From Cellulomonas sp. APG4 (GTDB taxonomy: Bacteria; Actinomycetota; Actinomycetes; Actinomycetales; Cellulomonadaceae), in assembly GCF_009996735.1 (NCBI RefSeq), contig NZ_JAACYI010000020.1, positions 1 to 64,000 on the forward strand: DNA of 64,000 nucleotides, given 5' to 3'. The number at the start of each line of letters is the position of its first letter. Within the stretch, counting starts at the first letter, position 1. This document shows positions 17,240-49,534 of this stretch, one piece after another. The notes under the pieces were generated by a model. It made no database searches. It was given only the letters and a program-made list of their open reading frames with translations, and had not been told where the DNA came from. The position numbers were made by a program, and so were the translations under genes.

Positions 17240-19857
17240 TGGCCACCCGTACGTCCGCACCCCGTGGTGCCACCGGTCGCGGCACCGCCGCACGCACCGG
17301 CACCGGCGCGGCGCGCGCGTCCGGCCGCACCCCCGCGCGACAGGGCGGCGGACGTCCGTCGGGGCGGCAGCCTGCGGCCCCGACGCAGCGTTCGCTGCCG
17401 GTCCGCATGGTCCGCGGCGTGTGGATGGGCGGTGCCCACGTCGTCGGCGGGACGGCGCGGCGGATCGGCCGGGGCGCGCGTGACCTCGACCCCGCGCACC
17501 GGCGCGACGGGGTCGCGTTCACGCTGCTGGGCCTCGCGGTCGTCGTCGCGGCGCGTGAGTGGTGGGGGCTGTCGGGCGGTGCGGGTGAGGTCATCCACGC
17601 CGTCGTCGCCGGGACCTTCGGGGTCGTCGGTGTGGTCGTCCCGCTGCTGCTTCTCGTCACCGCCGTCCGCCTGATGCGCCATCCGGACCGTGTCGAGGCC
17701 AACGGGCGCATGGGCATCGGCGTCGCCGGGATCCTCGCCGCGGTGTGCGGCCTGGTCCACCTCGCCGAGGGCCTGCCCTCACCGCGTGACGGGTTCGAGC
17801 CCGTCAGGGCCGCGGGTGGCGTCGTCGGGTACCTCGTCGCGACGCCCCTCGAGCACCTCGTGACGGCGTGGGTCGCCGTCCCGTTGATGCTCCTGCTGGG
17901 CGTCTTCGGCCTCCTCGTGCTCACGGCGACGCCCGTGCACATGATCGGCCCGCGCCTGCGCGAGACCTACGCGCGCCTCACGGGAGCGCACCGCCGCGAG
18001 GACGCGTCGGCCGACGACGACGACGAGAGCCTCGCCGACCTTCCTACGCTGGCCGAGCAGCAGGACGTCCAGGCGCCGCGCAAGCGGCGCCTGCCCCGGC
18101 GCGCGCCGCGCGCACGTGGTGAGGACGTCACGGTCGAGCTCGGTGCCTACTCGGGTGACGAGGCCTTCGAGAGCGCCGCGGTCACCGAGGCCGCCGTCGG
18201 ACCCGAGGCCACGGAGGTGCTCGAGACCGCACCGGAGACCGCGGCGACAGCCGTGGTCGAGGAAGGGACGGGGCGCGGGACGCTGCGAGCCCCGGCGACG
18301 AGCCCGGTGCCGCGCGGCGAGCAGCCCATGCTCGAGGGCGACGTCATCTACACGCTGCCGCCCGAGGAGGCCTTGGCCAAGGGCATGCCGCACAAGGTGC
18401 GCTCGGCCGTGAACGACCGCGTGGTCGAGGCGCTCACCGGTGTGCTCGAGCAGTTCGAGGTCGACGCGCAGGTGACGGGCTTCAGCCGCGGGCCCACGGT
18501 CACCCGCTACGAGCTCGAGCTCGGACCGGGCGTCAAGGTCGAGCGTGTCACGGCCCTCAGCCGCAACATCTCGTACGCCGTCGCGAGCGCGGACGTGCGG
18601 ATCCTCTCGCCGATCCCGGGGAAGTCCGCGATCGGCATCGAGATCCCGAACGCGGACCGTGAGACGGTCTCGCTCGGCGACGTGCTGCGGTCGTCGGCCG
18701 CGCGCCGCAGCGAGCACCCGATGGTCATCGGTGTCGGCAAGGACGTCGAGGGCGGCTACGTCGTGGCCAACCTCGCCAAGATGCCTCACCTGCTCGTCGC
18801 AGGTGCCACGGGCGCGGGCAAGTCGAGCTTCGTGAACTCCATGATCACGTCGATCCTCATGCGCTCGACGCCCGACGAGGTACGCATGATCCTGGTCGAC
18901 CCGAAGCGGGTCGAGCTCACCCTCTACGAGGGCATCCCGCACCTGATCACGCCGATCATCACCAACCCGAAGAAGGCGGCCGAGGCCCTCGAGTGGGTGG
19001 TGCGCGAGATGGAGGCGCGCTACGACGACCTCGCGATGTTCGGCTACAAGCACATCGACGACTTCAACGCCGGTGTCCGCTCGGGCAAGGTCACGCCCCT
19101 GCCGGGCAGCGAGCGGAAGATCGCGCCGTACCCGTACCTGCTGGTGATCGTCGACGAGCTCGCCGACCTGATGATGGTCGCGCCGCGCGACGTCGAGGCC
19201 TCGATCCAGCGCATCACGCAGCTGGCCCGTGCGGCGGGCATCCACCTGGTGCTCGCGACGCAGCGACCGAGCGTGGACGTCGTGACGGGTCTGATCAAGG
19301 CCAACGTCCCCTCCCGGCTCGCATTCGCCACGTCGTCGCTGACGGACTCGCGCGTGGTCCTCGACCAGCCCGGTGCGGAGAAGCTCATCGGCCAGGGTGA
19401 CGCGCTCTTCCTGCCGATGGGCGCGGCCAAGCCGATGCGTGTCCAGGGCGCCTGGGTCGCGGAGAGCGAGATCCACGCCGTCGTGGAGCACGTCAAGGGC
19501 CAGCTCAAGCCGACGTACCGCGAGGACGTCACGGCGCCCGCGGTCAAGAAGCAGGTCGACGAGGACATCGGTGACGACCTCGACCTGCTGCTCCAGGCGG
19601 CCGAGCTCGTGGTCACCACGCAGTTCGGGTCGACGTCGATGCTCCAGCGCAAGCTCAGGGTCGGTTTCGCCAAGGCCGGGCGGCTCATGGACCTGCTCGA
19701 GTCGCGCGAGATCGTCGGGCCGTCGGAGGGGTCGAAGGCACGCGACGTGCTCGTGCAGCCCGACGACCTGCCCGCGACTCTCGCGATGCTGCGCGGTGAG
19801 CCGGGCACGGCACCGGAGGCGGACGACGACGAGCCGTGGGGCGAGGAGGAGCGCTGA
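17239..19857 (+). CDS. ftsK: DNA translocase FtsK/SpoIIIE
   Basis: Septal DNA pump that clears chromosome termini during division. 872 residues: basic N-terminal tail of about 60 residues (Thr/Arg/Ala/Gly), four membrane segments (about 95-240), an acidic/proline linker, then the motor with Walker A GATGAGKSS near residue 522, LVDPKRVELTLYEG, the Walker B region LLVIVDELADLMM, and a C-terminal winged-helix gamma domain (QFGSTSMLQRKLRVGFAKAG) for polar-sequence reading. The start is set by the leaderless promoter pattern; the frame is open further upstream. Confidence 0.96.
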   Translation: MATRTSAPRGATGRGTAARTGTGAARASGRTPARQGGGRPSGRQPAAPTQRSLPVRMVRGVWMGGAHVVGGTARRIGRGARDLDPAHRRDGVAFTLLGLAVVVAAREWWGLSGGAGEVIHAVVAGTFGVVGVVVPLLLLVTAVRLMRHPDRVEANGRMGIGVAGILAAVCGLVHLAEGLPSPRDGFEPVRAAGGVVGYLVATPLEHLVTAWVAVPLMLLLGVFGLLVLTATPVHMIGPRLRETYARLTGAHRREDASADDDDESLADLPTLAEQQDVQAPRKRRLPRRAPRARGEDVTVELGAYSGDEAFESAAVTEAAVGPEATEVLETAPETAATAVVEEGTGRGTLRAPATSPVPRGEQPMLEGDVIYTLPPEEALAKGMPHKVRSAVNDRVVEALTGVLEQFEVDAQVTGFSRGPTVTRYELELGPGVKVERVTALSRNISYAVASADVRILSPIPGKSAIGIEIPNADRETVSLGDVLRSSAARRSEHPMVIGVGKDVEGGYVVANLAKMPHLLVAGATGAGKSSFVNSMITSILMRSTPDEVRMILVDPKRVELTLYEGIPHLITPIITNPKKAAEALEWVVREMEARYDDLAMFGYKHIDDFNAGVRSGKVTPLPGSERKIAPYPYLLVIVDELADLMMVAPRDVEASIQRITQLARAAGIHLVLATQRPSVDVVTGLIKANVPSRLAFATSSLTDSRVVLDQPGAEKLIGQGDALFLPMGAAKPMRVQGAWVAESEIHAVVEHVKGQLKPTYREDVTAPAVKKQVDEDIGDDLDLLLQAAELVVTTQFGSTSMLQRKLRVGFAKAGRLMDLLESREIVGPSEGSKARDVLVQPDDLPATLAMLRGEPGTAPEADDDEPWGEEER

Positions 19858-22034
19858 CGCCGTCCGCCCTGGTGGCCGCCACCGTGGCCGTGGTGGCCCT
19901 CGCGCTGCTCGTCGCGATCGGTCTCCGGGCCCGGCGTGCACGCGCCCGCGCGGACAGCGCTGCCGCCGGGCGTGCGCTCGCCGAGGGGAGGCTCGCGGGG
20001 GTGCTCGCCGCGGGCCGGGACGGGATCCTGGTGCACACGCGCGACGGCCACGTCACCGAGGTGAGTGCGGCCGCGGCAGAGCTCTTCGGCACCGACATGC
20101 GTTCCCTCGTCGGGACGAGGGTGGACCACCTACCCGTCCGGTGGCGCAACGACGACGGCGAGGAGGTCGTCCCGAGCTCGGTGTTCGCACCCCGGACGGC
20201 ACCGGTGGCGTCCTCACCCGACGAGGCGCCGGGTGCGCCGGGGCTGGTCCTGGGGGTCGACCGCGGAGTCGGGGAGCCGCGCTGGGTCCAGGTCACGACA
20301 CGACCGTTGCCCGGCGGGCCGGGCGACCCCGAGCTCGTCACCGTGCTGACGGACGTCACCGGGCCGCGCGAGGTGCGCGCCGCGCTGGCCCGTTCCGAGC
20401 GCCAGTTCCAGGCGGCGATGGAGAACGCACCCATCGGGATGGCGCTCGCCGACCCCTCGTGGCGGCTCGAGCAGGTCAACCCCGCGTTCGCCGCGCTGCT
20501 CGGCGCGGACGCCGCGTCGCTCGTCGGGCGTGACCTGTCCTCGCTCTCGCACCCCGCCGACCGCGCCCTCGAGCGGGCGCAGGTCCAGGAGATGCTCGCC
20601 GGTGCGCGACAGCGGTTCACGCTCGAGAAGCGCTACGTGCGCGCCGACGGCCAGACGGTCTGGGGCGTGCTCGACGCGGTCCTCGTGCGCAACGCGACCG
20701 GCGCGCCCGATCACGTGGTCCTCCAGCTGCGCGACGTGACCGAGTCCCGGATGCAGTCCGAGCTGCTCGCCCACCGCGCGATGCACGACTCGCTGACCGG
20801 GCTCGCCAACCGCGCGCGGATGCACGAGGTCCTCGAGCACTGCCTCGGTGAGCCCGACGCCGCCGGTCGCGTCGCCGTGCTCGCGATCGACCTGGACGAG
20901 TTCAAGCAGATCAACGACAGGTACGGTCACGCGGCCGGTGACGAGGTTCTCGTGCACGTCGCGGGCGTGCTGCGGGCCGCGACCGCCGGACGCGGCACCC
21001 CCGCACGGCTCGGGGGAGACGAGTTCGTGGTCGTGATCCGCGACCCCGACGCCGCGCGCGTCGTCTTCGAGGTCTCCGCAGGCATCCACCAGGGGCTGCG
21101 TGACCCGGTCCGGACCGAACGACGACGGCTGCCCGTGCGCGCGAGCGTCGGCATCGCCGTGGCCGACACCGCCCTGGTGCGCAGCGGGCCCATGGGCCTG
21201 CTCGCCGCCGCGGACGCCGCGCTGTACCGGGCCAAGGCCGCGGGGCGCGGGCGCAGCGAGGTCTACGACGCCTCGATGACGATGAGCGCGCCGTCGAAGC
21301 ACGGCGTCGCGGCCGAGCTCGGTGAGGCGATCGAGCGCGGTCAGCTCGTGCTGCACTACCAGTCGGTGGTGGACCTCGGGACCGGCGCCGTCGTGGGCCA
21401 GGAGGCGCTCGTGCGCTGGCAGCACCCCGAGCGTGGCCTGCTGCTCCCCGGCTCGTTCCTCCCGACGGCCGAGGAGACCGGGCTCGGGGCCGCCCTGGGC
21501 GGCAACGTCATGACCCAGGCGGCGGCCTATCTCGCGCGCACGCAGGAGGCCGGCCGTTGGCTCTCGGTCAACGTCTCGGCGGACCAGCTGGGCGACGGCG
21601 AGCTCGTGGCACGCATCCTCGCGGAGGTCGAGCGCTTCCGGGTTGCGCCCGGGCGCCTCGTCGTCGAGCTGACCGAGGCGAGCCTGGGTGACTCGAGCGC
21701 ACACATCCGCCACGAGCTCGGTCAGCTGCGTCAGGCCGGGGTGCCCGTGGTCCTGGACGACTTCGGTACGGGCGTGAACCCGCTCTCCTCCCTGCGCGAC
21801 CTGCCCGTCACAGGCGTGAAGCTCGACATGTCCTACACCGCGGGCATCCCTGAGGACCCGGCCGCCGCGCGGGTCTCGCGCGCCCTCGGGTCGTTGGCGC
21901 GTGAGCTCGAGCTCGTGACGATCGCGAGCGGGATCGAGACCGAGGAGCAGGCGCGCGTGCTGCACGGCTGCGGGTGGCGCTTCGGCCAGGGCTGGCTGTT
22001 CGGCGCGGGGGAGTCCGAGCCTCTCGGGATCTGA
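19836..22034 (+). CDS. PAS-GGDEF-EAL cyclic-di-GMP signalling protein
   Basis: Predicted enzyme of c-di-GMP turnover. Domains: one N-terminal membrane helix (about residues 10-28), two PAS domains (about 45-170 and 185-300), GGDEF (393-397 exact, so diguanylate cyclase activity is possible) and EAL (E523 in EALVRW, with DDFGTG further on, so phosphodiesterase activity is possible). Which activity dominates cannot be read. Start uncertain: GTG 19836 is inside ftsK with a poor ribosome site, while CTG 19854, overlapping the ftsK TGA, has GAGGAGGA ideally placed. The 154 bp to pgsA hold five tandem repeats. Confidence 0.9.
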   Translation: MGRGGALTPSALVAATVAVVALALLVAIGLRARRARARADSAAAGRALAEGRLAGVLAAGRDGILVHTRDGHVTEVSAAAAELFGTDMRSLVGTRVDHLPVRWRNDDGEEVVPSSVFAPRTAPVASSPDEAPGAPGLVLGVDRGVGEPRWVQVTTRPLPGGPGDPELVTVLTDVTGPREVRAALARSERQFQAAMENAPIGMALADPSWRLEQVNPAFAALLGADAASLVGRDLSSLSHPADRALERAQVQEMLAGARQRFTLEKRYVRADGQTVWGVLDAVLVRNATGAPDHVVLQLRDVTESRMQSELLAHRAMHDSLTGLANRARMHEVLEHCLGEPDAAGRVAVLAIDLDEFKQINDRYGHAAGDEVLVHVAGVLRAATAGRGTPARLGGDEFVVVIRDPDAARVVFEVSAGIHQGLRDPVRTERRRLPVRASVGIAVADTALVRSGPMGLLAAADAALYRAKAAGRGRSEVYDASMTMSAPSKHGVAAELGEAIERGQLVLHYQSVVDLGTGAVVGQEALVRWQHPERGLLLPGSFLPTAEETGLGAALGGNVMTQAAAYLARTQEAGRWLSVNVSADQLGDGELVARILAEVERFRVAPGRLVVELTEASLGDSSAHIRHELGQLRQAGVPVVLDDFGTGVNPLSSLRDLPVTGVKLDMSYTAGIPEDPAAARVSRALGSLARELELVTIASGIETEEQARVLHGCGWRFGQGWLFGAGESEPLGI

Positions 22035-22040
22035 GGGTGC

Positions 22041-22175
22041 CTGTCCGCCCCACCCCGCCCGGCGGTGCTGTCGGCCCGACCCCGCCCGGCCGTGCTGTCG
22101 GCCCGACCCCGCCCGGCCGTGCTGTCGGCCCGACCCCGCCCGGCGGTGCTGTCGGCCCGACCCCGCCCGGCCCTC
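22041..22175 (+). repeat. Five tandem 27-bp repeats before pgsA
   Basis: Units start at 22041, 22068, 22095, 22122 and 22149. Each begins CTGTCGGCCCGACCCCGCCC and ends GGCCGTG or GGCGGTG. Copies 2-4 differ at one base; copy 1 carries two changes in the first part; copy 5 ends differently. The last unit touches the pgsA -10 hexamer (22176), so the repeats fill the -35 region and upstream. Confidence 0.95.
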
Positions 22176-22188
22176 TAGTGTGGGACGG
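22176..22188 (+). promoter_or_regulatory. pgsA promoter, leaderless layout
   Basis: TAGTGT (22176-22181), 6 nt, then GTG 22188. The position of a -35 box would fall within the last 27-bp repeat. Confidence 0.55.
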
Positions 22189-22754
22189 TGCCCGGGACGA
22201 CATCGGTGTGGAACCTCGCCAACACGGTGACGGTCGCGCGCATCGCGCTCGTGCCCCTCGTCGTCCTGGCGATCCTCGCCGACGACGGCGGGGGCGGCTG
22301 GCGCTGGGTCGCGGGGGCGCTCTTCGCCCTCGCGGCGGCGACGGACCGTCTCGACGGCTACCTCGCGCGACGGCTCGACCAGGTCACGGACTGGGGAAAG
22401 ATGGTCGACCCGATCGCCGACAAGGCCCTCATCGGTGCCACGCTCGTCACGCTCTCGGCGCTCGGCGACGTGCCGTGGTGGATCACGATCGTGGTCGCCG
22501 TGCGCGAGCTCGGCATCACGGCCATGCGCTTCGCGGTCCTGAGGTACGTGGTCATCCCGGCGTCACGCGGCGGCAAGCTCAAGACCGTCCTGCAGTCCGT
22601 CGGCCTCGGCATGTTCGTCGTACCGCTCGGGACGCTGCCGGCCTTCGTCCAGGTCACCGCATGGGTCGTGCTGCTCGCCTCGGTCGTGGTGACGGTGGTG
22701 ACCGGCGTCGACTACCTCCGGCGCGGCTGGGCGGTGCGCCAGGGCGTCGTGTGA
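22188..22754 (+). CDS. pgsA: CDP-diacylglycerol-glycerol-3-phosphate phosphatidyltransferase (PgsA)
   Basis: Membrane enzyme making phosphatidylglycerol phosphate, or a closely related CDP-alcohol phosphatidyltransferase such as phosphatidylinositol-phosphate synthase. 188 residues, about five membrane segments. The CDP-alcohol signature with all its Asp, Gly and Arg residues is visible in DRLDGYLARR followed by DWGKMVDPIADK. ftsK-pgsA-cinA-clgR is a conserved actinobacterial order, which supports PgsA. Confidence 0.93.
   Translation: MPGTTSVWNLANTVTVARIALVPLVVLAILADDGGGGWRWVAGALFALAAATDRLDGYLARRLDQVTDWGKMVDPIADKALIGATLVTLSALGDVPWWITIVVAVRELGITAMRFAVLRYVVIPASRGGKLKTVLQSVGLGMFVVPLGTLPAFVQVTAWVVLLASVVVTVVTGVDYLRRGWAVRQGVV

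Positions 22755-49134: not shown

Positions 49135-49534
<400 letters not shown>

Follow-up and report, generated by a model that had tools for sequence, protein, structure and literature searches.

A five-unit 27-bp tandem repeat directly upstream of the pgsA -10 box in an Actinotalea genome, probably a recent intergenic minisatellite

Introduction

Does a row of short tandem repeats standing directly before the core promoter of an essential phospholipid gene act on that gene, or has it merely grown there? The question is raised by five 27-bp units upstream of pgsA in a genome of the genus Actinotalea (Cellulomonadaceae), a 3.74-Mb draft of 48 contigs. The window, i.e., the whole stretch of DNA analysed, comprises 64 kb of contig 12. 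Tandem repeats in promoters are known from Mycobacterium tuberculosis, where they occur at lpdA-glpD2, cysG-efpA and dop (PMC12817950). A search of the literature on pgsA tandem repeats and on Cellulomonas VNTRs gave nothing on the pgsA array locus.

Results

The array consists of five contiguous 27-bp units, which start at positions 22041, 22068, 22095, 22122 and 22149 of the forward strand and fill the interval 22041-22175. It is bordered on the upstream side by a PAS-GGDEF-EAL gene (19836-22034, forward strand, taken from the ORF list; Pfam EAL 1.9e-60, GGDEF 1.1e-37, and PAS), whose stop codon lies 6 bp before the first unit. On the downstream side it borders on the -10 box TAGTGT (22176-22181, forward strand) of pgsA (22188-22754, forward strand, GTG start). 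The pgsA product, CDP-diacylglycerol--glycerol-3-phosphate 3-phosphatidyltransferase, was recognized by Pfam CDP-OH_P_transf and by NCBIfam TIGR00560 (127 bits, cut-off 109). Units 2 (22068-22094, CTGTCGGCCCGACCCCGCCCGGCCGTG) and 3 (22095-22121) are identical, and unit 4 (22122-22148) has one difference from unit 2. The two edge units are variants, unit 1 (22041-22067, CTGTCCGCCCCACCCCGCCCGGCGGTG) with three differences from units 2 and 3, and unit 5 (22149-22175) with two; the 3' end of the latter, CCCTC, abuts the -10 box. Near-identity of units 2 to 4, which differ by at most one base, together with more divergent edges is what slippage or unequal exchange is expected to leave.

TRF called the region 22036-22171 with a period of 27, 5.0 copies, 95% matches, no indels and a score of 235, whereas 30 simulated versions of the 64-kb window, drawn from a first-order Markov model, scored at most 84. 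The sequence-only reading, which had described five 27-bp repeats abutting the pgsA -10 box, had the register right, and the array is real. The interval given there for the repeats, 22041-22187, was correct in its start but too long, since the repeats stop at 22175 and the remainder is the -10 box and a 6-nt spacer. The array is a minisatellite in the sense of two or more head-to-tail units of at least 10 bp that occur beyond chance. The same reading held that the frame of the array is not part of a supported gene. We agree, and a coding repeat was ruled out: the open reading frames across the array are of low complexity and unsupported, and the EAL gene terminates upstream. The window also contains a perfect 7-bp repeat, CTGAGCG, in 5.1 copies at 49499-49534.

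The number of five units was read from a draft assembly, and one may ask whether a repeat collapsed or expanded during assembly accounts for part of it. The fragmentation into 48 contigs and the near-identity of the units, which add up to 135 bp, the length of a short read, speak for such an error. However, the edge units differ from the inner ones, the unique flanks are continuous with the array on both sides, and the error would touch the unit count alone, not the existence of the array. We regard this explanation as extremely improbable.

When the whole genome was searched for the unit with up to 3 mismatches, six matches were obtained. Five of them were the units of the array and one was a single copy on contig 30, while a reversed control pattern gave one match under the same threshold. 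The array is therefore confined to a single locus. Scattering of the repeat over unrelated loci, named earlier as the observation that would speak against a role at pgsA, was not seen genome-wide, and a scattered or mobile repeat was ruled out by the same search. Upstream of pgsA the array was absent from all 16 other Actinotalea loci found. The near-identical inner units and this restriction to one lineage bear out one of the two earlier suggestions, that the array is recent, though, with one genome compared, the near-identity of the units could come from selection instead. DNA matches in the rest of the family were weak, and those at about 1e-4 are GC-rich noise, given by half of all genomes. 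The best two (L052 and L053) are built of other units (15/30 bp and 13/27 bp, respectively). To judge by their neighbours, they lie between other genes, a comM-like and a dprA-like gene in the first case and a CAP-domain gene and an aminotransferase gene in the second. With other units and unrelated gene neighbours, they were rejected as related arrays and treated as compositional look-alikes.

The promoter was compared across the family in those 68 pgsA loci, the window included, that allowed alignment of the N-terminus. A TANNNT sequence stands 6 or 7 nt before the GTG or ATG in 67 of the 68 loci, the window again among them, and this conservation of a leaderless-type box shows that the -10 box proposed from the sequence is genuine. 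The commonest boxes are TAGGGT and TAGGCT, from which TAGTGT departs only mildly. Leaderless genes of actinobacteria have a published signature, a TANNNT placed about 12 bp ahead of the start codon (PMC3160421), and mapping of transcription starts in M. tuberculosis recovered a TANNNT -10 element and no -35 consensus (PMC3898074). The first base of TAGTGT lies 12 bases before the GTG, so that transcription of pgsA is predicted to start at or beside the start codon and the gene should be leaderless. The locus resembles the published leaderless promoters in its family-conserved box 12 bases before GTG and in belonging to a genus without a -35 consensus; it differs from them in that the start site is here predicted from sequence alone.

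The array directly precedes the -10 box and, as the sequence-only reading had it, stands in place of a -35 element and the upstream region. In the family the bases upstream of the -10 box are hardly conserved, with a preference only at -26/-25 and immediately beside the box (positional counts in which similar sequences had a reduced weight, leaving about 45 effective sequences). The strongest preference, 11.8 where the mean is 2.3, is for TG at -26/-25 before the box, and (T/A)CGG often comes next. This preference was observed post hoc and rests mainly on other genera, and TG is found in only 1 of 16 congeners. In unit 5, TGTCGG (22150-22155, forward strand) occupies bases 26 to 21 before the -10 box, and a copy of it is present in each of units 2-5. 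We treat TGTCGG of unit 5 as a lead, a possible weak -35-like element. PafBC-type promoters carry the motif TGTCRGTG-N8-TANNNT; this type was ruled out, because the locus lacks the second half of that motif and exceeds its spacing by 10 bp.

Elsewhere in the family, where an EAL gene lies directly upstream, 9 to 104 bp separate the EAL stop from the pgsA start. At loci L003 (A. soli) and L015, the GGDEF/EAL gene has as its stop codon the TAG with which the pgsA -10 box TAGGGT begins. Because the gap varies so widely and the EAL stop can overlap the -10 box, the upstream sequence appears to be freely replaceable, and no constraint is visible at the present site of the array.

The repeats had also been suggested to form a multi-site operator, which would bind one regulator dimer per unit at GTCGGCCCGAC. 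An 11-bp partial palindrome, GTCGG-C-CCGAC, is indeed present in each of units 2-5, but by a rough estimate about 0.8 such palindromes are expected per random GC-rich 27-mer with loops of 0-6, i.e., it is at chance level. Moreover, the period of 27 bp corresponds to 2.57 helical turns, which would place adjacent sites on different faces of the DNA. The unit is not conserved in the congeners, and no conserved upstream element was found there. Neither a site shared by the orthologous promoters nor a regulon in the genome was seen, the one further match of the unit carrying 3 mismatches. The operator proposal was consequently abandoned as very unlikely.

A further explanation is that the array acts by its structure, either in RNA, as the 3' end or terminator of the EAL transcript, or in DNA, as a G-quadruplex on the template strand at the pgsA promoter. 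Antisense RNA of the array folds better than shuffled sequences (z -2.75), while for RNA in the sense of the EAL gene, the strand which would be transcribed from it, the folding is at chance level (z -1.53). Repeating a GC-rich unit of partial dyad symmetry may by itself account for the antisense stability. No terminator-like site was found at the array, and the array had no match in Rfam, upon which a structured RNA was ruled out. On the template strand there are 16 G-runs in the 135 nt of the array, exceeding the count in every one of 38,200 sampled stretches of 135 bp. The region has a single canonical G-quadruplex-forming sequence, GGGCCGGGCGGGGTCGGG (22156-22173, reverse, i.e., template strand), which lies beside the -10 box. 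None of the 66 other aligned family pgsA promoters has the motif, and it is regarded as incidental unless shown otherwise. As a whole, the structural explanation is very unlikely.

Tandem arrays were also counted in 1.26 Mb of sampled Actinotalea DNA, comprising 864 kb of the same genome and 400 kb from two congeners, with minimum values of 10 for the period, 2.8 for the copy number and 100 for the score, and with crude gene calls. About ten arrays lie outside genes, roughly one per 130 kb, and the pgsA array is among the strongest. Among the nine with both neighbours called, four are in convergent gaps, which should hold no promoter, and none in divergent gaps; intergenic arrays are thus not a speciality of promoters.

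Discussion

The array upstream of pgsA is probably a recent, slippage-born intergenic minisatellite of a single locus, near to neutral. We infer its slippage origin and near-neutrality from the uniform inner units, the divergent edges, the occurrence at one locus in one lineage, and the tolerance of a -10-dominated promoter. A stretch of about 27 bp in the gap that separates the EAL gene from the pgsA -10 box would have multiplied recently in this lineage only, by replication slippage or unequal recombination. It would have been tolerated because the leaderless, -10-dominated promoter of pgsA would need no particular upstream sequence. The last unit would now supply the -35 region, and the effect on pgsA transcription would be incidental and probably small. 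The array shares with bacterial VNTR and minisatellite loci (such as MIRU-VNTR) its head-to-tail units of more than 10 bp, intergenic position, uniform inner units and restriction to a lineage, and differs from them in being known from the sequence of one strain.

Some points count against neutrality. The array is flush with the -10 box, where an effect in cis is physically likely; the number of G-runs on the template strand is above that of every sampled stretch; and, by analogy, M. tuberculosis repeats that are placed alike vary in copy number, which has been linked to changes in expression (PMC12817950). A rival explanation is that slippage changes the copy number and shifts the strength of the promoter, so that phospholipid synthesis would be phase-variable. 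As in promoter tandem repeats, the array, with its end at 22175, adjoins the core promoter. At M. tuberculosis lpdA, the number of 58-bp repeats, the last of which stops 12 bp short of a leaderless gene, is variable, and more biofilm is formed by strains that were engineered to have a second copy (PMC12817950). The layout at lpdA, and at cysG, is that of pgsA, where the array likewise ends 12 bp upstream of the predicted leaderless GTG. Both hosts are actinobacteria, and in both, single-locus tandem units stand directly upstream of leaderless promoters (predicted as such in pgsA). In addition, TGTCGG is present in every full unit, its last copy at the commonest TG position of the family. On the other hand, the M. 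tuberculosis units are 54-58 bp long against 27 bp here, the sequences and genes are unrelated, and variation in copy number is shown there, while the copy number of the pgsA array is known from a single genome, one strain having been compared. Congeners do without the array and without a conserved -35 element, similar arrays lie in gaps that hold no promoter, and phase variation is less readily expected of an essential gene. Tuning of the promoter by slippage is plausible, but we hold it to be unlikely. We find it more doubtful still that the number of 27-bp units sets and reversibly varies pgsA expression, which would make the supply of phosphatidylglycerol phase-variable outside the mycobacteria.

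If copy number does tune pgsA, tandem repeats in promoters would be no peculiarity of mycobacteria but a device of wider use in actinobacteria, able to act on an essential gene. If the array is neutral, which we judge likelier, -10-dominated leaderless promoters would tolerate the growth of repeats up to the core promoter. The pgsA array is a further example of an already known kind of locus.

Other arrays were noticed in the course of the comparisons. At locus L110, in one other genome of the family (G098), an unrelated perfect minisatellite, GTCCACCCGGCCCT, with 3.9 copies of 14 bp, lies about 81-134 bp upstream of pgsA; in a relative (L140) there is apparently just one similar copy. With a second, unrelated array upstream of the same gene, births of such arrays therefore recur. 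The genome that carries the pgsA array also has a dispersed minisatellite family with the core GGAACGCTCCACACG and a period of about 20 bp, which, unlike the pgsA array, occupies many loci. It gave 45 matches on both strands at up to 1 mismatch, with none for the control, on contigs C1, C7, C11, C18, C19, C24, C27, C36, C44 and C48, all outside the window. On C11 of the same genome, at about 60-140 kb (L116-L118), many tandem arrays with units of 18, 21, 24, 40, 53, 66, 71 and 86 bp are clustered, perhaps as a variable island.
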